Shown here piece after piece: positions 6,865 to 33,548 of a stretch of DNA of 49,557 nucleotides. A model generated the notes under the pieces. The model made no database searches. It saw only the letters and a list, made by a program, of their open reading frames with translations, and had not been told where the DNA came from. Numbering within the stretch: position 1 is the stretch's first letter; each line of letters starts with the position of its first letter. Made by a program: the position numbers and the translations under genes. The stretch spans positions 1 through 49,557 of the forward strand of contig CANSKS010000017.1 of assembly GCA_947647615.1 (NCBI GenBank), written 5' to 3'. This DNA is from an uncultured Neglectibacter sp. (GTDB taxonomy: Bacteria > Bacillota > Clostridia > Oscillospirales > Acutalibacteraceae).

Positions 6865-7715
6865 GGGGAAACACCTCCTTCTAAAATAGCCTTTATGGCC
6901 GGGAAGTCCAAACAGTCTTCCAACAGATCGGCCAGCCTGTCGAATTCCTGCTCCTGAAAGGCTTCGAAGCTTATGCCGGGCGGAATCAGCTTTTCCAGGC
7001 TCTGCCTGGTTTGCGTATTTTCCCCCGGCAGGTCATCTTCGTCTTCCAGGTGCAGATCTATGTGGGGCACAACGCCCAATACCGGTACCTGGGTAAGCCG
7101 CGCGATGATGTGGCAGCCCTCCTGGAAGGAATTGGGATCGCCGTAAAAATCGTTGACAATAATGCCCTTCACCAGCTTGCGTTCCTCTGACTCAAACAGA
7201 GAAATGGTCCCGTAGACCGAGGCGAACACGCCGCCCCGGCGGATATCGGCCACCAGGATTACCGGGCAGCCGGCCTTCACGGCGAAACTCATATTCACCA
7301 TATCGTTTTGCTTTAAATTGAGCTCCACAGGGCTTCCTGCCCCTTCGGCTACCACCACTTCATAGGAGGCCTGCAAACGGCGGAAGGCTTCCAAAGCCCG
7401 GCTCCTTTTGGCTTCCAGGCTCAGCTCCGGGGAGAGTATACCGTCTACGAAGGTGCCGCCGTTTTTGCAGAACTTTACCAGAACGGGATTCATATCGGTA
7501 CTGGGTTCTACGCCGCAAGCAGCCGCGGCAATGGCCTGAGAACGTGCCATTTCTCTGCCATCCGGCAAAATGTGGCCACGATTGGAAAGGTTTTGGGCCT
7601 TAAAAGGAGCCACCCGCAGGCCCTGCCGGGCAAAAAGGCGGCACAGGCCAATGCAGAGGGTGCTTTTCCCTACACCGGAAGCCGTGCCTTGAAGCATGAT
7701 CGTTTTTCCATTCAT
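6861..7715 (-). CDS. CobQ/CbiP-type cobyric acid synthase lacking the glutaminase domain
   Basis: 284 residues, against about 490-510 for normal CobQ. The N-terminal synthetase domain is complete: P-loop 'GTASGVGKSTLCIGLCRLF', then 'APFKAQNLSNRGHI', 'GREMARSQAIAAAACGVEP', 'VVVAEGAGSPVELNL' and 'ILVADIRRGGVFASVYGT'. After 'VLGVVPHIDLHLEDEDDL' the protein jumps to 'EFDRLADLLEDCLDFPAIKAI', which resembles the extreme C-terminal helix of full-length clostridial CobQ. The class-I-like amidotransferase domain, with its Cys and His, therefore seems to have been removed from the middle. Such an enzyme might use free ammonia, ammonia passed by a partner, or have a different job. It overlaps both neighbours by 4 bases and is part of the corrinoid operon. 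Confidence 0.82.
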   Translation of the reverse strand: MNGKTIMLQGTASGVGKSTLCIGLCRLFARQGLRVAPFKAQNLSNRGHILPDGREMARSQAIAAAACGVEPSTDMNPVLVKFCKNGGTFVDGILSPELSLEAKRSRALEAFRRLQASYEVVVAEGAGSPVELNLKQNDMVNMSFAVKAGCPVILVADIRRGGVFASVYGTISLFESEERKLVKGIIVNDFYGDPNSFQEGCHIIARLTQVPVLGVVPHIDLHLEDEDDLPGENTQTRQSLEKLIPPGISFEAFQEQEFDRLADLLEDCLDFPAIKAILEGGVSP

Positions 7716-28582: not shown

Positions 28583-28611
28583 TTGACAAATCAGAAATAA
28601 TGTTATAAAAT
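28583..28611 (+). promoter_or_regulatory. Promoter of the BlaI/BlaR-like operon
   Basis: -35 TTGACA (28583-28588), 17-base spacer, and -10 TAAAAT (28606-28611). Downstream, TGTAGT near 28626 and ACTACTGTA near 28655 form a loose GTAGT/ACTAC symmetry with TGTA elements of the kind BlaI/MecI proteins bind. The operator itself is uncertain. Confidence 0.7.
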
Positions 28612-28681
28612 TCACTTGTAAAAAAGTGTAGTCGATATTAAATTGATGAACAAACTACTGTAAGAAAGGAGGTGAGCACCC

Positions 28682-29095
28682 ATGAGAAAAGATATTGGCT
28701 TGACGAAACGGGAAGAAGAACTGATGAACTTTTTGTGGGATTATGAGGAGCCTATCACCAGCAACGCTATTTTGAAGTTCTGTGAAAACCGCTCCTGGAG
28801 TGAAAGCTATTTGTATGTTATGCTCCGTTCCCTGCAAAAAAAGGGACTATTGCAGCAGCGGGAGCCAATGCAATACGGTTCCCAATACGCCCGGCGGTTT
28901 TACTGTACTATGACAAAGGAAGAATACTATGTAGCGCTGGCCGCAGGGAAAGATCTGGACACAAAAGCGTTCGCAAAAAATGTCGTGGCTATGGCTGTAA
29001 AAGAAGGCAAAGGAGATAACAAAGAGCTGCTGGAACAGTTAGAGCAAATGCTCAAAGAGGCTTCTGAAGGCCCCCCAGAAAAAGAAAAGAAATAA
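28682..29095 (+). CDS. BlaI/MecI family transcriptional repressor
   Basis: 137 residues behind AAAGGAGGTGA. The winged helix is clear ('LTKREEELMNFLWDYEEPIT', 'WSESYLYVMLRSLQKKGLLQ', 'YARRFYCTMTKEEYYVALAA'), followed by a dimerisation tail ending in Glu/Lys-rich residues. BlaI-type repressors are cut by a partner M56 membrane protease when a signal is sensed. The gene directly upstream of that protease fits this arrangement. The usual cleavage site region after the DNA-binding domain is present but no specific scissile bond can be named. No beta-lactamase or PBP2a gene is nearby, so the regulated genes are likely the cluster downstream. Confidence 0.88.
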   Translation: MRKDIGLTKREEELMNFLWDYEEPITSNAILKFCENRSWSESYLYVMLRSLQKKGLLQQREPMQYGSQYARRFYCTMTKEEYYVALAAGKDLDTKAFAKNVVAMAVKEGKGDNKELLEQLEQMLKEASEGPPEKEKK

Positions 29096-29112
29096 AAAAT
29101 GGAAGGTGCCCC

Positions 29113-30270
29113 ATGCAGTTTACTGTCTTCTCCTTTGTGACCTCCTGGGTTTTCAGCGCCGTGATCTTGCTCACGATCCACTTTCTGCGGAGAAACCGGG
29201 AATTTATCAAGAGCTTCGGCGTGGGAGCTATGCTCCTGCTTTATATTGGCTGTATAGTCCGTATGGCTTTCACTCCAGAATTTTCGTTTACAAGGTCTCT
29301 GGAACTACCCCGACTGGTCAATTCCTTTTACCAAGCAATTTACATAGAGCCCATCACAGTTTTCACCCATCAAATCTCGATCTATGTTATTTTTCTTGGG
29401 GTTTGGCTCTTGGTGGCAGCCCTGCTCACCGCTGTGTTTGCTCTGCGGTATCTTTTTGGGCTTCGGGAGATCAGCCAGTACGAGGCAAACACCAGCCGCC
29501 AGGGAGAGCGCATCTTGCATCGGGTACGATCAGAGCATTCCCGCAAAATACAGGCAAAGGTTTTTATCTGCCCTAAAGTTAAGTTCCCCATGGGCGTGGG
29601 CCTGAAGAAAAAGCGGATCTTGCTCCCAGCCGGCGAATACACGGACCAGGAGCTCTATTACATGCTCAAACATGAATACGCCCATTTCTATAACCGCGAC
29701 CTGACCGTGACATTTCTTGTCAACCTGTTTTGCTGTCTCTATTGGTGGAACCCGGCAGTCTACCTGCTGCGAAAAGATATCTCTCAAATGTTAGAGCTCA
29801 AATGCGACCTCACCGTCACGCAGCAGTTCAGCTTGAAGGAAAAAACAGAATATTGTTCTATCATCCTGGAGCTGCTGAAGGGCCCGAAACCAAAGAACGC
29901 TATAGATATCCCCGCCGCCGCGGGAATGGCAAAGCGAGCAAAAAGCTCTGCGCTGGTGGAACGGTTTGACGCGGTATTAAAGCCCTTTCAAAAAGGAAAA
30001 CGCTGGATTTCTGGCAGCGTTCTCGTTGGATTTTTAGCGGTTTTTCTCATGTCGTATACGGTGGTAATTCAACCATACTATGACCCACCAAAGAAAGAGG
30101 TAATGTCTACTGATGGGACTATAGACCCCGATCCTTCGGAAGGTTACATTCTCAAGCGCTCAGATGGAACTTATCTCATGGTATTGCCAGATCAGACATT
30201 TCCATTAAGCCAGGAAACCGCGGAAGTATTTGCTTCCACAGGAATTGAAATCAAGGAGGAAACAAAATGA
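29113..30270 (+). CDS. BlaR1/MecR1-like M56 membrane metalloprotease without beta-lactam sensor
   Basis: 385 residues. Three N-terminal membrane segments lie at about residues 5-25, 36-52 and 88-115. They are followed by the M56 zinc protease domain with HEYAH at 187-191 and a downstream ELKCD that supplies the third ligand (E228). A fourth membrane segment lies at about 297-318. BlaR1 proteins continue for about 250 residues with a penicillin-binding sensor. Here only about 65 extracellular residues remain, ending 'EVFASTGIEIKEETK'. The signal must therefore be something else, sensed by the short tail, the membrane loops or a partner. The stop overlaps the next ATG (ATGA), so this protein and the small secreted peptide are translated as a pair. 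Confidence 0.88.
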   Translation: MQFTVFSFVTSWVFSAVILLTIHFLRRNREFIKSFGVGAMLLLYIGCIVRMAFTPEFSFTRSLELPRLVNSFYQAIYIEPITVFTHQISIYVIFLGVWLLVAALLTAVFALRYLFGLREISQYEANTSRQGERILHRVRSEHSRKIQAKVFICPKVKFPMGVGLKKKRILLPAGEYTDQELYYMLKHEYAHFYNRDLTVTFLVNLFCCLYWWNPAVYLLRKDISQMLELKCDLTVTQQFSLKEKTEYCSIILELLKGPKPKNAIDIPAAAGMAKRAKSSALVERFDAVLKPFQKGKRWISGSVLVGFLAVFLMSYTVVIQPYYDPPKKEVMSTDGTIDPDPSEGYILKRSDGTYLMVLPDQTFPLSQETAEVFASTGIEIKEETK

Positions 30271-30533
30271 AAAAACTGATCACAACAGGCATCGTTTCTA
30301 TACTGCTGGTAACTTTAATCGCTTTCCCTGCGCAGGCTTCAGGAATAGAGTCTTTGGAAAACCAAAACAGGGAAACGATCACGCAAGCCGCAGCAGCATC
30401 AGGCGACGCGGTTATGCCTCTGGCTGACACAATTGTCATAAAAACCCGAACGTATAACGGAAAAAAGCAATACCGGCGGTGGAACGCTACAAAAGGCTAT
30501 TGGGTCGATCCCTATTGGATCGATTGCATATAA
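30267..30533 (+). CDS. Small secreted peptide coupled to the M56 protease gene
   Basis: 88 residues. A clear Sec signal peptide ('MKKLITTGIVSILLVTLIAF') ends at a likely PAQA cleavage site (about residue 24). The mature part of about 64 residues has a flexible Glu/Gln/Ala-rich first half. A basic-aromatic C-terminal half follows ('TYNGKKQYRRWNATKGYW', then 'VDPYWIDCI') with a single Cys one residue from the end. No lipobox is present. The family was not identified. Overlap of the start with the protease stop means the two genes are translationally coupled. The peptide could be the ligand, inhibitor or substrate of the M56 protein. This is inference. Confidence 0.75.
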   Translation: MKKLITTGIVSILLVTLIAFPAQASGIESLENQNRETITQAAAASGDAVMPLADTIVIKTRTYNGKKQYRRWNATKGYWVDPYWIDCI

Positions 30534-30857
30534 CAATCTATGGATTCTTGGGAGATGAGCAAACAACATACAATTTAGATAGTCCGCCTTGCTTGTTTAT
30601 CTATAAACATACGCAAATCCGGCCGTCAATTTTGACAATTGCTTATGGGCAAATTGGAGTTTTGCTCATCTCCAAGTTTCTTGGAAGGGGGTGATACCCA
30701 TGAACAAATAAGATATCCATATAAAACCGAAAGGCTGGGGGGCCTGCCGAACCAAGTTCGGCACACGGGTTTATATGGATTGGAATCATTATACTTGATT
30801 GCATTTTTATTTACAAGATTTTTGGAAAAATACGATTTTATGGAAGGAAAGAGAAAC
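30534..30857 (+). other. Structured non-coding stretch, candidate leader RNA
   Basis: No real gene was found; the only start-like site heads a 3-codon frame (ATG at 30700) behind a strong GGAAGGGGGTG. Two long pairings stand out. First, CTTGGGAGATGAGCAAA (30547-30563) pairs with TTTGCTCATCTCCAAG (30661-30676), one bulged G, 97 bases apart. Second, ATCCATATAAA (30715-30725) pairs with TTTATATGGAT (30770-30780). The second encloses CC-GAAA-GG and GCCGAAC-CAA-GTTCGGC hairpins, giving a three-way junction. There is no T tract, so this is not a plain terminator. It does not match a riboswitch core known to me. The metalloprotease gene starts 78 bases further on. Confidence 0.55.
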
Positions 30858-32126
30858 ATGAAGAAAAGATTGCTATCAATATTTTTGGCCATGTGTCTTA
30901 TAGTAACATCAACTTTCAGCATGAGTGTTTCTGCTGCGAGTAATAATTTCACTGACATTTCAAATCATTGGGCAAAGGTTTATATCAACTATGTATGCAA
31001 TACTAAAGAGGTCATGGAAGGTTTCGATGGCAGTACTACCACATTTTCTCCCAACACAACGTTAAGCCGCGCGGATTTGGCTATGATTATGGGAAAGGTG
31101 TGCGGAATTAAGTTATCCGAGTGGCAGGGGGCCACAAAATTTACCGATGTCAGCACCTCCTCAAGGTATTGCCCCTATATAAAATGGGCTAGTGAAATGG
31201 GTATTATTACCGGAAATTCGAGTACAACATTTGCTCCGGCTAACCCCATTAAACGTCAAGATGCGGCTGTGCTGCTGTATCGGTATATTACCAAATATAA
31301 TATTCCAGTAAGCCCTTCCGGAAGTTATCCGAACTTTACCGACCAGTCTTCCATTTCTTCCTATGCCACGGCAGCGGTAAAATTTGTGGTACAAGCAGGG
31401 TTAATGGGGGGAAGTGGTTCCAATTTTAACCCACAAAAAACTATAACACGGGCAGAAATTGCGACCATGGTCTATAACCTCTATGTTCGGTATTTGTCAA
31501 AAGAAGCATATAGCAACCGAACGGTCAACATAGTGGTAGGAACAACAAATTCATTCTATAAAGAGCATTCTTCTACCAACGATATTCGCAATTATCTCAG
31601 CAATGCTCAACTTCCTTTTACAAATCGCTGGAATATTTCTTTTAATCCTACTTATCAAATGTTATCCGACCTTCCTGAAGACGGATGCAGTAAATGGAAC
31701 TCGCTTTGCGATAATTCCTGTGGAACCAGATGTGTAGATAATACCTCCCAGCCAAATCACCATAAAAACTGGTACTGGAATTTTTATCATGTCTGGGAAC
31801 ATATGCCCTATCCAGGTAAAGCATTTCGAGTGGCAGCGACTTCTGCTTATCTCTGCGATCATATAGATGGTGGAAAGCATAATCACCGTATTGCCGGGTT
31901 AACAGCGGAAGATTTATCTATGGTTTACCTTGCAAAAGCAAATGGGGCAAATAATATTCGAATTATTCAACATGAACTTTCTCATCTATACGGTCCTGAT
32001 GATGGAAAGTGCTCTACAGGTGTTCTTTGCATTATGAGTGGCGGATTCGATTTTAATACGACTTATAATTTACAGAATATTTGGTGTCCGGGATGCTCTA
32101 ACAGCTTTACTCGGACAGCTCAGTAA
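30858..32126 (+). CDS. SLH-anchored zinc metalloprotease, archaemetzincin-like motif
   Basis: 422 residues from the ATG at 30858, with GGAAGGAAAGAG in front. The longer frame to 30639 runs through the structured leader. A signal peptide (cut near residue 27) is followed by three SLH repeats (about 28-85, 92-145, 158-212) that bind cell-wall polysaccharide. The C-terminal domain (about 220-422) has H372-E-x-x-H376-x-x-G379-x-x-D382. It continues with C385-x5-C391-x-M393 and C410-x2-C413. This is close to the archaemetzincin pattern of a metzincin core plus zinc-knuckle cysteines, but with Asp in place of the third His, as in snapalysins. Six further Cys lie upstream. It is AT-richer than the flanking genes and probably acts at the cell surface. 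Confidence 0.82.
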   Translation: MKKRLLSIFLAMCLIVTSTFSMSVSAASNNFTDISNHWAKVYINYVCNTKEVMEGFDGSTTTFSPNTTLSRADLAMIMGKVCGIKLSEWQGATKFTDVSTSSRYCPYIKWASEMGIITGNSSTTFAPANPIKRQDAAVLLYRYITKYNIPVSPSGSYPNFTDQSSISSYATAAVKFVVQAGLMGGSGSNFNPQKTITRAEIATMVYNLYVRYLSKEAYSNRTVNIVVGTTNSFYKEHSSTNDIRNYLSNAQLPFTNRWNISFNPTYQMLSDLPEDGCSKWNSLCDNSCGTRCVDNTSQPNHHKNWYWNFYHVWEHMPYPGKAFRVAATSAYLCDHIDGGKHNHRIAGLTAEDLSMVYLAKANGANNIRIIQHELSHLYGPDDGKCSTGVLCIMSGGFDFNTTYNLQNIWCPGCSNSFTRTAQ

Positions 32127-32158
32127 CTAAAAATATTATAAATCTGGAGGTAAAACTT

Positions 32159-32800
32159 ATGAAACGTCTATTCCTATCTCTGCTATGTTTTGCCGTGGCA
32201 ATAAGTTTATGCGCCTGCACTTCTAAAGAGACGGTTCAAGAATCATCCTTTATTAGGCTTGAGTCAATGGAGGAGTTAAGAGAATATTTAAGTCAGGAGC
32301 CGGCTGAGGTCGCTATGTCATTTACAGCTGAGGAAGAGCCTATTTATGTTCCAAATGAAGAGCAGGTCAGCGGGGAATTTAATGCCGATTTGAGTGAAAT
32401 CGTCCTGGATAACAACAATTTCTATTTCCGCTTCAAGGTCCGAGACGCTAACTTAAATTTGGCTAACGAATATGATCCTACCAATGGAGCTTTAAGTGAA
32501 GAAGAGAGCATCGATTCAGAAATGGCTCGAGCTTGCTCAGAAGATCTTATGATTGGCTGGCAACGCAATAGTAATGGAGAGGATGTTCTCAATGCTCTAG
32601 CAGAAAGCAATCCCCTTTATTATTGGGAGGAACATCCTGGGTACTATTACACTACTTCACCATATAACGGAATGGAAGATCCTTTAGGATATATGATTTA
32701 TTGGGTACAAGACAGTCACTTTTTCCAGGCGAGTGTTCCCGCAGAGAAGCTTGATATTTTCTGGGAAAATTGTGAAACGATGATAGGAGATTTATTATAA
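32159..32800 (+). CDS. Lipoprotein of unknown function
   Basis: 213 residues behind a TGGAGG site. The signal peptide ends in lipobox SLCAC, with the lipidated Cys near residue 20. The mature part is acidic, with many Glu and Asp, and contains aromatic runs such as 'PLYYWEEHPGYYYTTSPYNG'. No known domain was recognised. It starts 32 bases after the SLH metalloprotease gene and has the same AT-rich codon use, so the two were probably acquired and are expressed together. A 12-bp hairpin follows. It could be a partner, substrate or immunity-like protein of the protease, but nothing in the sequence decides this. Confidence 0.7.
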   Translation: MKRLFLSLLCFAVAISLCACTSKETVQESSFIRLESMEELREYLSQEPAEVAMSFTAEEEPIYVPNEEQVSGEFNADLSEIVLDNNNFYFRFKVRDANLNLANEYDPTNGALSEEESIDSEMARACSEDLMIGWQRNSNGEDVLNALAESNPLYYWEEHPGYYYTTSPYNGMEDPLGYMIYWVQDSHFFQASVPAEKLDIFWENCETMIGDLL

Positions 32801-32830
32801 AAATTCCTTTTCACGATAGGCTCCTATAAA

Positions 32831-32860
32831 TTCAGGTGCTCTAAACCAAGAGCACCTGAA
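32831..32860 (+). terminator. 12-bp perfect hairpin after the lipoprotein gene
   Basis: TTCAGGTGCTCT (32831-32842) and AGAGCACCTGAA (32849-32860) pair around a 6-base loop. No T tract follows on the plus strand, so it may be a transcript end or a processing hairpin. Confidence 0.6.
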
Positions 32861-32900
32861 AGCTGAACCAAAGATATTTAATCCAGAAAGGAAGAGCTTT

Positions 32901-33548
32901 ATGAAACAGAAGGTCGCGCTCCTGCTAGCGCTGCTGCTGTGCCTTTGCACCTTGTCCTTCCCCGTTCAGGCCCAGGCAGTTTTTACGGATATTGAGGGCC
33001 ATTGGGGAGAAGAAAGCATTCTTTGGGCTTATGAAAAAGGGCTGGTGAACGGGGTGTCTCCCACAAAATTCGCGCCCAACGCGCCCATGACCAGGGCGGA
33101 ATTCATCACCCTGGCATACCGTATGGCAGAGGGACCTGAGATAACCAATACGGAGCCCTTTTTTACAGATGTTCCCGAAACAGCGTTCTATTTTCAAGCG
33201 GTGCAATGGGCAGAGGAAAATAATCTCATGCACGGTCGCGGGTATCGGGAATTTTTGCCCAACAGTTTGATCACCCGGGAAGAGATCGCCATTGTGCTGC
33301 ACCAGTATGTGTTCTATGAATATCCCATCAAGAATCCCGGCGCGCCCTATTTTTCTTTCGACTATCCCGATTATCCGGAGCAATATACCGATACGGCAGA
33401 TATCTCAGAACATGCCGACCGGGCCATGCGTTGGGCTGTTGGGCTTTTTAAGATACTTTCCGGAAAAACGCCTACTACGCTGAACCCCAAAGATACCGCT
33501 ACTCGGGCAGAGGCTGTCACGTTTATCAAAAGGTTCCGGAACGAATGA
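32901..33548 (+). CDS. Secreted protein made of three SLH domains
   Basis: 215 residues with AAAGGAAGAG before the ATG. A signal peptide (cut after PVQAQA, about residue 26) is followed by three SLH repeats that fill the protein: 'FTDIEGHWGEESILWAYEKG', 'FFTDVPETAFYFQAVQWAEE', and a third ending 'ATRAEAVTFIKRF'. There is no additional effector domain, so it may be a wall-binding or scaffolding protein. Its codon use is GC-richer than the metalloprotease just upstream, so it may have a different origin. It closes the block that began with the BlaI-like repressor. Confidence 0.85.
   Translation: MKQKVALLLALLLCLCTLSFPVQAQAVFTDIEGHWGEESILWAYEKGLVNGVSPTKFAPNAPMTRAEFITLAYRMAEGPEITNTEPFFTDVPETAFYFQAVQWAEENNLMHGRGYREFLPNSLITREEIAIVLHQYVFYEYPIKNPGAPYFSFDYPDYPEQYTDTADISEHADRAMRWAVGLFKILSGKTPTTLNPKDTATRAEAVTFIKRFRNE

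Follow-up and report, generated by a model that had tools for sequence, protein, structure and literature searches.

The closest described relatives of the system reported here pair a BlaI-type repressor with an M56 membrane protease. BlaR1 cleaves BlaI directly (PMC9834060). The mycobacterial BlaR (Rv1845c) is an M56 protease without an extracellular sensor; its input is given as unknown, and how it senses is an open question (PMC9834060, PMC5473688). In cyanobacteria, a BlaI-like repressor and a BlaR1-like protease, PetR and PetP, are used for copper (PMC7896320), and BlaI can be released by a peptidoglycan dipeptide (PMC3305447). Here we analyse a 49,557-nucleotide (nt) stretch, contig CANSKS010000017.1 (assembly GCA_947647615.1) of an uncultured Neglectibacter sp., which we call the window; the genes, promoter and leader given for it lie on its forward (+) strand. 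It carries a blaI-like gene, a gene for an M56 protease and a gene for a small protein (the peptide), followed by a structured RNA leader and genes for secreted proteins. The trio of blaI, M56 and the small tryptophan- and arginine-rich protein forms a conserved unit in several groups of Clostridia. We do not class the system as BlaR1; it is a variant of the BlaI/M56 type that brings with it a new family of small proteins and a candidate new family of RNAs. An open-access literature search found no paper on such a trio.

The blaI-M56-peptide unit

The first gene (28682..29095) encodes a BlaI/Penicillinase_R-type repressor of 137 amino acids (aa) that passes the Penicillinase_R profile (40.9 bits, cut-off 22.6). 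The second (29113..30270, 385 aa) encodes a membrane gluzincin that passes Peptidase_M56 (PF05569; 107 bits, cut-off 31), with HEYAH at residues 187-191, E228, D232 and R284. All of 71 proteases of the family have H187, E188, H191, D232 and R284, and 68 of them have the third zinc ligand, E228. They would correspond to H201EXXH, E242XXXD (Asp246) and Arg294' of BlaR1, as numbered in the passages on its active site (PMC9834060). The window M56 scores far below the three BlaR1/MecR1 models that it matches (the best, blaR1_generic, gives 72 bits against a cut-off of 400), and its alignment to blaR1_generic covers only positions 102-333 of 585, ending before the sensor region. From the low score and the limited alignment we conclude that the protein has no penicillin-binding sensor. 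Its last membrane helix is followed by a C-terminal tail of about 60 residues, which by analogy with BlaR1 would lie outside the membrane; many M56 tails have a DG/NG-containing pattern in common (by eye). The third gene (30267..30533) encodes a small Sec-type protein of 88 aa with a core of about 38 residues (RRWN...W.DP.W), and its ATG overlaps the TGA stop of M56 as ATGA. No beta-lactamase or penicillin-binding protein (PBP) gene was found among the locus genes or ten further genes scanned (20.0-45.8 kb), the rest of the window being read by eye. An initial annotation of this DNA had described the same gene set, with the leader and the SLH and lipoprotein genes behind it and no beta-lactamase or PBP gene nearby, and our analysis bears it out.

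As in BlaI-BlaR1 and MecI-MecR1, a BlaI-type repressor adjoins an M56 gluzincin that keeps HEXXH...E...D and the partner arginine. Unlike them, the window system has no penicillin-binding sensor (class-D-like in BlaR1 and MecR1), no beta-lactamase or PBP gene among the ten nearby genes, and a new small protein in third place. With the mycobacterial BlaR/BlaI system it shares an M56 protease without an extracellular sensor, but the phylum is different and the passages on that system do not mention a small third gene. PetR-PetP is likewise a BlaI/BlaR1-like pair serving a purpose other than beta-lactams, but neither a small protein nor an RNA leader is mentioned in the passages on it. The dipeptide result indicates that the BlaI family can respond to wall fragments, though the ligand there is a cytoplasmic wall fragment and not an encoded protein.

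The third gene is nearly inseparable from M56. The initial annotation had named peptide homologues lying mostly away from M56 genes as a result that would refute it; the opposite is seen. In a peptide-first scan of named GTDB genomes, M56 lies directly upstream on the same strand at 36 of 38 loci, and the two misses, L062 and L093, start 88 and 98 nt from a contig edge. These loci include records labelled Butyricicoccus, Agathobaculum, Roseburia faecis, Faecalicatena, Blautia, Pseudobutyrivibrio and others; the hosts of the trio are gut bacteria related to Acutalibacter and Roseburia. After pooling and deduplication there are 79 peptide loci, of which 75 have M56 upstream, with blaI also called in 58 of the 75. 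Of the four loci without M56, one is an orphan copy from the genome of the window and the other three lie at contig edges. The pool omits at least one decayed copy (L168, by the motif rule) and a phage-labelled trio found later. Of 60 relatives searched, 17 have the peptide; every one of these 17 belongs to the window's genus, which contributed 29 genomes (its own included). Wider draws found it in at least 24 of 250 genomes of the family of genome G299, at least 5 of 391 of the class and at least 2 of 398 of the phylum (the last two including the window's own), where 14-22 first-look candidates were scored in most genomes and the counts are lower bounds. At the 38 scanned loci the flanking genes show no general conservation, so we take the trio itself as the unit.

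Seen from the protease, the peptide is present at 23 of 32 M56 places. Three of the nine without it are in long frames (599-722 aa) of another M56 type, L032 ends at a contig edge, and the other five lack the peptide. M56 genes without the peptide, together with SLH genes that are not conserved at the other trio loci examined, would be expected if this were an ordinary BlaI/M56 pair beside an unrelated small gene and chance SLH neighbours. We find that hardly credible: recurrence already contradicts it, through the peptide-M56 link at 36 of 38 loci and an RNA element that recurs beside the peptide in distant genera.

Some individual copies depart from the usual arrangement. The orphan core in the window's own genome (contig C28, 178-460; L006/L145) has no M56, is 79% identical to the window core and lies near a contig end. 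L168 (G1367, about 6934-7400) appears to be a trio with an internal deletion: M56 and blaI give no match, and what is left is a decayed peptide, the leader RNA and a gene for a secreted protein, together with a promoter-like TTGACA/TATGAT (by eye). At L185 (5930-10381, G023) the trio is followed by a large membrane protein with no Pfam match, a radical-SAM protein and a Cys-rich small open reading frame of 64 residues, a gene set that resembles a cluster for ribosomally synthesized and post-translationally modified peptides. No trio was found as phage or plasmid cargo in the viral_contigs or plasmid sets. The unverified faecal contig MT839943.1 (L184), labelled 'Bacteriophage sp.', carries blaI-M56-peptide beside a glycosyltransferase-like gene (by eye), a neighbour that makes the phage label doubtful and probably wrong.

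The small protein and its possible role

By its sequence the peptide belongs to a new small-protein family. The window copy has no Pfam match (the best Pfam E among 25 members is 0.013), matches in NCBIfam and PHROGs are weak and come from the N-terminus, the best of them (E 0.0059) scoring under its cut-off, and the best PDB match has an E of 0.1. Across the 32 rows of alignment A3, distant members among them, three core residues do not vary, an arginine and two tryptophans; in some members further removed than these, a tyrosine stands in place of the first tryptophan. In 84% of 780 pairs, drawn from 40 of 71 loci, identity is higher for the core than for M56, with means of 43% and 28%. Conservation above that of M56 is what one expects of a part that touches something invariant.

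Pheromones that encode specificity are typically not more conserved than their receptor. This bears on the proposal of the initial annotation that the secreted peptide itself is the signal. As a diffusible autoinducer, it would accumulate outside and trigger M56, giving cell-density or pheromone control, and it is indeed small, mostly made with a secretion leader and encoded in the same operon as its presumed receptor. We consider this improbable, and the signal role unproved, given a core usually more conserved than the receptor, no evident hypervariable specificity region in alignments A1 and A3, and 13 leaderless copies. In addition, the cores of the two G023 trios are almost alike, so that these trios would cross-talk; the three trios of G010 differ more.

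The leaderless copies appear in the first peptide alignment, where 11 of 25 rows have a signal peptide and 14 do not. These 14 comprise 13 loci in 11 genomes of the window's genus and the orphan L006; at 12 of the 13 loci M56 is upstream, and the other, L039, is at a contig edge. Leaderless peptides have start codons of their own immediately ahead of the conserved core, in most cases preceded by a ribosome-site-like stretch. Their frame relative to M56 varies by locus, which rules out that a programmed frameshift or read-through joins them to M56. These independent starts would suit a core that acts in the cytoplasm, on BlaI or on the M56 active site, the leaderless form being the working form and the signal peptide of other lineages a membrane anchor or regulated sink. 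However, leaderless forms are confined to the window's genus, apart from an unclear case (L131), and a simple hydropathy rule, wrong for at least one row, assigns a hydrophobic leader to 65 of the 79 pooled copies. Secretion therefore looks ancestral, and a cytoplasmic role very improbable. An ABC exporter is the next gene after the leaderless peptide in L059, L062, L063 and L066, and L070 has a related one 4.3 kb downstream; the exporters of L062, L063, L066 and L070 are 64-76% identical to that of L059. They may provide an alternative export route in part of this one genus.

Our preferred reading, to which we give a probability of roughly 0.5, is that the locus is an autoregulated BlaI/M56 switch whose outer receptor part includes the detached small protein, and that in some genomes it also drives secreted hydrolases. 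The repressor would hold the operon off. On a signal, M56 would do what BlaR1 does and cut BlaI from the side of the cytoplasm, and transcription of the operon would follow; by that analogy, BlaI cleavage by M56 is likely. The small protein may then be a detached extracytoplasmic part of the receptor, a step of which we are less sure. It would bind M56 on the outside, at the short tail or at loops, and also a conserved envelope ligand, and so gate the protease; being made from the same operon, it would provide feedback. In a subset including the window, the transcript may continue through the leader RNA into genes for secreted hydrolases or surface proteins, so that the switch would set their output. 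The signal might be a cell-wall or surface state, which is a guess.

We put the outside part of the receptor at about even odds as the role of the third gene, with an effector role as the main rival. As an output, the peptide would stand in place of a bla or mec resistance gene and protect the envelope, by binding the wall, lipid II or an attacking peptide, or else act antagonistically, and M56 would sense by itself. The order regulator-protease-effector is that of bla operons, and the mostly present hydrophobic leader and the conserved aromatic and arginine core are compatible with such a role. The orphan (C28, 317-460) and decayed (L168) copies, both followed by the RNA leader, suggest that the peptide can travel as cargo. 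The exporter beside 4 of the 13 leaderless copies and the radical-SAM gene and Cys-rich small frame behind the L185 trio also speak for an output role. On the other hand, 75 of 79 copies stay with M56, whereas effectors often switch regulators, the peptide has diversified little, unlike weapons or immunity proteins, and no known antimicrobial family was matched. We regard the output role as possible, though unlikely.

Several results weigh against the switch with a detached receptor part. An extracellular role is difficult to reconcile with the 13 same-genus loci that encode the core without a signal peptide, unless the core leaves the cell by another route, and an exporter adjoins only four of them. 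M56 genes of the trio type occur without the peptide at L017, L019, L024, L025 and L029. Had the peptide split off from the protease, the M56 tail might be homologous to its core; the sequences give no sign of this (hhalign probability 0.1 on the percent scale). In a mirror-tree test, partial correlations with the core are 0.18 for the tail against 0.22 and 0.23 for the two parts of the M56 body, where all three beat 500 permutations that ignore descent, and core-tail co-evolution is indistinguishable from shared descent. Because tail-core homology is undetected and the mirror-tree test gives no special tail-core signal, the receptor part is something that we infer. Operators of BlaI, MecI and CopY are of the TACA-N2-TGTA type. 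Here too the system differs from BlaI-BlaR1 and MecI-MecR1, as the operator TACANNTGTA is found in 0 of 49 upstream regions (0.3 expected by chance). TACNGTA occurs in 8 of the 49 against 1.6 expected, a pattern chosen after inspection. Start sites were set by rule and another operator may serve, but no conserved BlaI operator was convincing in these regions. Finally, the RNA leader follows only 5 of 75 trios.

A more specific form of the reading is a split receptor, in which a BlaR1-type protease and a separate secreted sensor of about 40 residues share one operon with a new RNA class marking secreted-hydrolase genes. This remains tentative and on balance doubtful. If it is true, BlaI/M56/peptide transcription and the leader RNA would jointly control what gut bacteria place on and outside their surface. 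The presence of the small protein beside M56 at 75 of 79 loci makes the question of how sensorless BlaR1 homologues sense testable in gut bacteria such as Agathobaculum butyriciproducens or Roseburia faecis.

A structured RNA leader

Positions 30531-30857 of the window fold better than 100 of 100 shuffles (z -4.1). The predicted leader (30687..30796) consists of a conserved GGTGATnCCnATG segment and a three-way junction with its core at about 30716-30779. Searching at the DNA level with positions 30531-30870 brought up further copies in the genome of the window, and models R1-R3 give 21 copies in total: six in the own genome (plus a seventh, of 27 nt, at a contig edge), two in G007, one in G014, two in Agathobaculum (L071), one in Butyricicoccus (L083), one in G645 (L110), two in G1367, one in G1253, four in G1245 and one in G1235. 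Carriers are 6 of 394 genomes of the order and 3 of 29 of the genus. Across 81 loci (619 kb) the L110 copy is the sole R2 match (E 2.3e-7), and R3 adds only two matches there, with E values of 0.14 and 0.92.

The covariation alignment A9 includes 19 copies, leaving out an identical copy (L175) and a cut copy (L142) and keeping another cut copy. In it 91.3% of cells pair, and both sides have changed in 16 of 24 pairs, with 49 such cells. Slid controls reach at most 6 pairs and 8 cells, and 0 of 500 shuffles reached the values for paired cells, pairs or double-change cells; a fourth measure, of further pair types, was reached by 99 of 500. A9 was fitted to the model, which favours the structure, and in the unfitted six-sequence alignment A4 a double change is seen in only one pair. 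Rfam 15 gives no match at E up to 1 for window positions 30000-31200, and none at the gathering score for six loci with copies. The leader is unlikely to be a coding sequence: its stems covary, and in L071 the reading frame is interrupted (by eye). We propose the leader as a candidate new family of three-way-junction RNAs with strong covariation and a consistent link to genes for secreted proteins. A word search of the main text of a study of structured RNAs of the human microbiome (PMC8040213) gave no match, and the leader may be among the candidates of that study. Like structured bacterial 5' leaders, it is a folded RNA in front of a gene, at a distance of 45-310 nt and with secreted products in this case; unlike them, it has no Rfam family and many copies adjoin BlaI/M56 cassettes.

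In 7 of the 21 copies the leader is directly downstream of a peptide gene. The distance from the peptide stop is 153 nt in the window and 193 nt in G007 (contig C3), and it is 16-27 nt at C28 (27), the first copy of L071, L167, L168 (decayed peptide) and L110 (16). Such gaps leave little room for a promoter between peptide and leader at the five loci, where one inside the peptide gene would still be compatible. In the window, the plus strand from the M56 stop to the SLH protease gene has no match that resembles a promoter or a terminator, and a sigma-70-like promoter of the trio, TTGACA-17-TAAAAT (28583..28611), is predicted from consensus only, with 11 of 12 matches; such promoter- and terminator-like sites are no more numerous in the region than in shuffles. 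Two more copies, both in G1245, come directly after blaI-M56 pairs that lack this peptide (L170 8756-10060 and L172 2386-3687), in which M56 has a different, Cys/His-rich tail and the leader is followed by a gene for a secreted protein. Another three (the second copies of L071 and L170, and L083) are within about 2.6 kb of such genes, and the remaining nine have no trio gene seen nearby, some being at contig ends. In two of these nine, L171 and C77 in L141, a PadR-like gene on the opposite strand stands beside the leader in place of blaI (by eye).

Genes for secreted proteins behind trio and leader

The next gene could be called for 16 leader copies (five gave none). All 16 products have an N-terminal hydrophobic segment, against 34 of 107 controls from the same regions, where the threshold was set after seeing the 16 and the controls may still include leader genes. 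The domains are varied: C39-like peptidase in L170, L174 and L175 (an interrupted gene), Amidase_6 in L071 (second leader copy; the second gene there), DUF2599 in L168, Big_14 in L177, and fn3 at its cut-off in L170 (second copy) and below it in L173 and L083. No domain was matched behind the first copy of L071 or in L141, L142, L167, L172 and L176, and the L110 gene was outside the scan.

In the window, the leader precedes a gene for a secreted protein of 422 aa (30858..32126) with three SLH stretches and a probable metzincin-like protease domain. Metzincins (M12-like) have the motif HExxHxxGxxH/D, and this protein has HELSHLYGPDD. The initial annotation had called it an SLH-anchored zinc protease. 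The SLH part of that claim is firm, and the zinc protease is likely but short of proof, as the sole peptidase match, Reprolysin_5, falls below its cut-off (22.1 bits, cut-off 27); a PDB search gave no peptidase match. Next come a putative lipoprotein (32159..32800, 213 aa) with no Pfam family and a lipobox-like LCAC (by eye), and a secreted protein with three SLH stretches by profile match (32901..33548, 215 aa). The SLH matches of the two SLH proteins score 114.6 and 107.3 bits.

The further suggestion that SLH genes are part of the circuit fails at the 38 scanned loci, none of which has one directly downstream of the trio on the same strand. Genes that cluster with the window SLH genes near L061, L064 and L083 are much longer and placed otherwise, and Pfam confirms SLH for L061 only. 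Of the 71 trio loci that have 700 nt or more downstream, 38 are followed within 450 nt by a gene on the same strand, and only 13 of these 38 genes start with a hydrophobic segment, so a secreted neighbour is a minority arrangement. Leader and secreted protein recur in a minority, with proteases and an amidase among the products, such as the C39-like protease of G007. Only for a subset, therefore, is it plausible to link the trio to extracellular hydrolases: control of surface proteolysis, also suggested initially, may fit the window, G007, L071 and L186 but is not a rule of the family. In L186, a gene for a secreted trypsin-like protease lies about 200 nt after a leaderless peptide, without this RNA leader.

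Other structured elements occur nearby. A long imperfect hairpin (GGAGATGAGCAAA/TTTGCTCATCTCC) lies at window positions 30550-30680, between the peptide gene and the three-way junction. Several contigs of the window's own genome (among C77, C79, C1, C28 and C23; L141, L142, L144, L145 and L143) end in or near leader copies, so the leader is probably a repeat that broke the draft assembly. A second, unrelated structured-looking leader, which has no Rfam match, is found in two genomes of the genus after leaderless peptides and before genes whose starts resemble signal peptides (L186 6160-6310 and 8569-8709, L070 8130-8195), and its copies are 78-91% identical.

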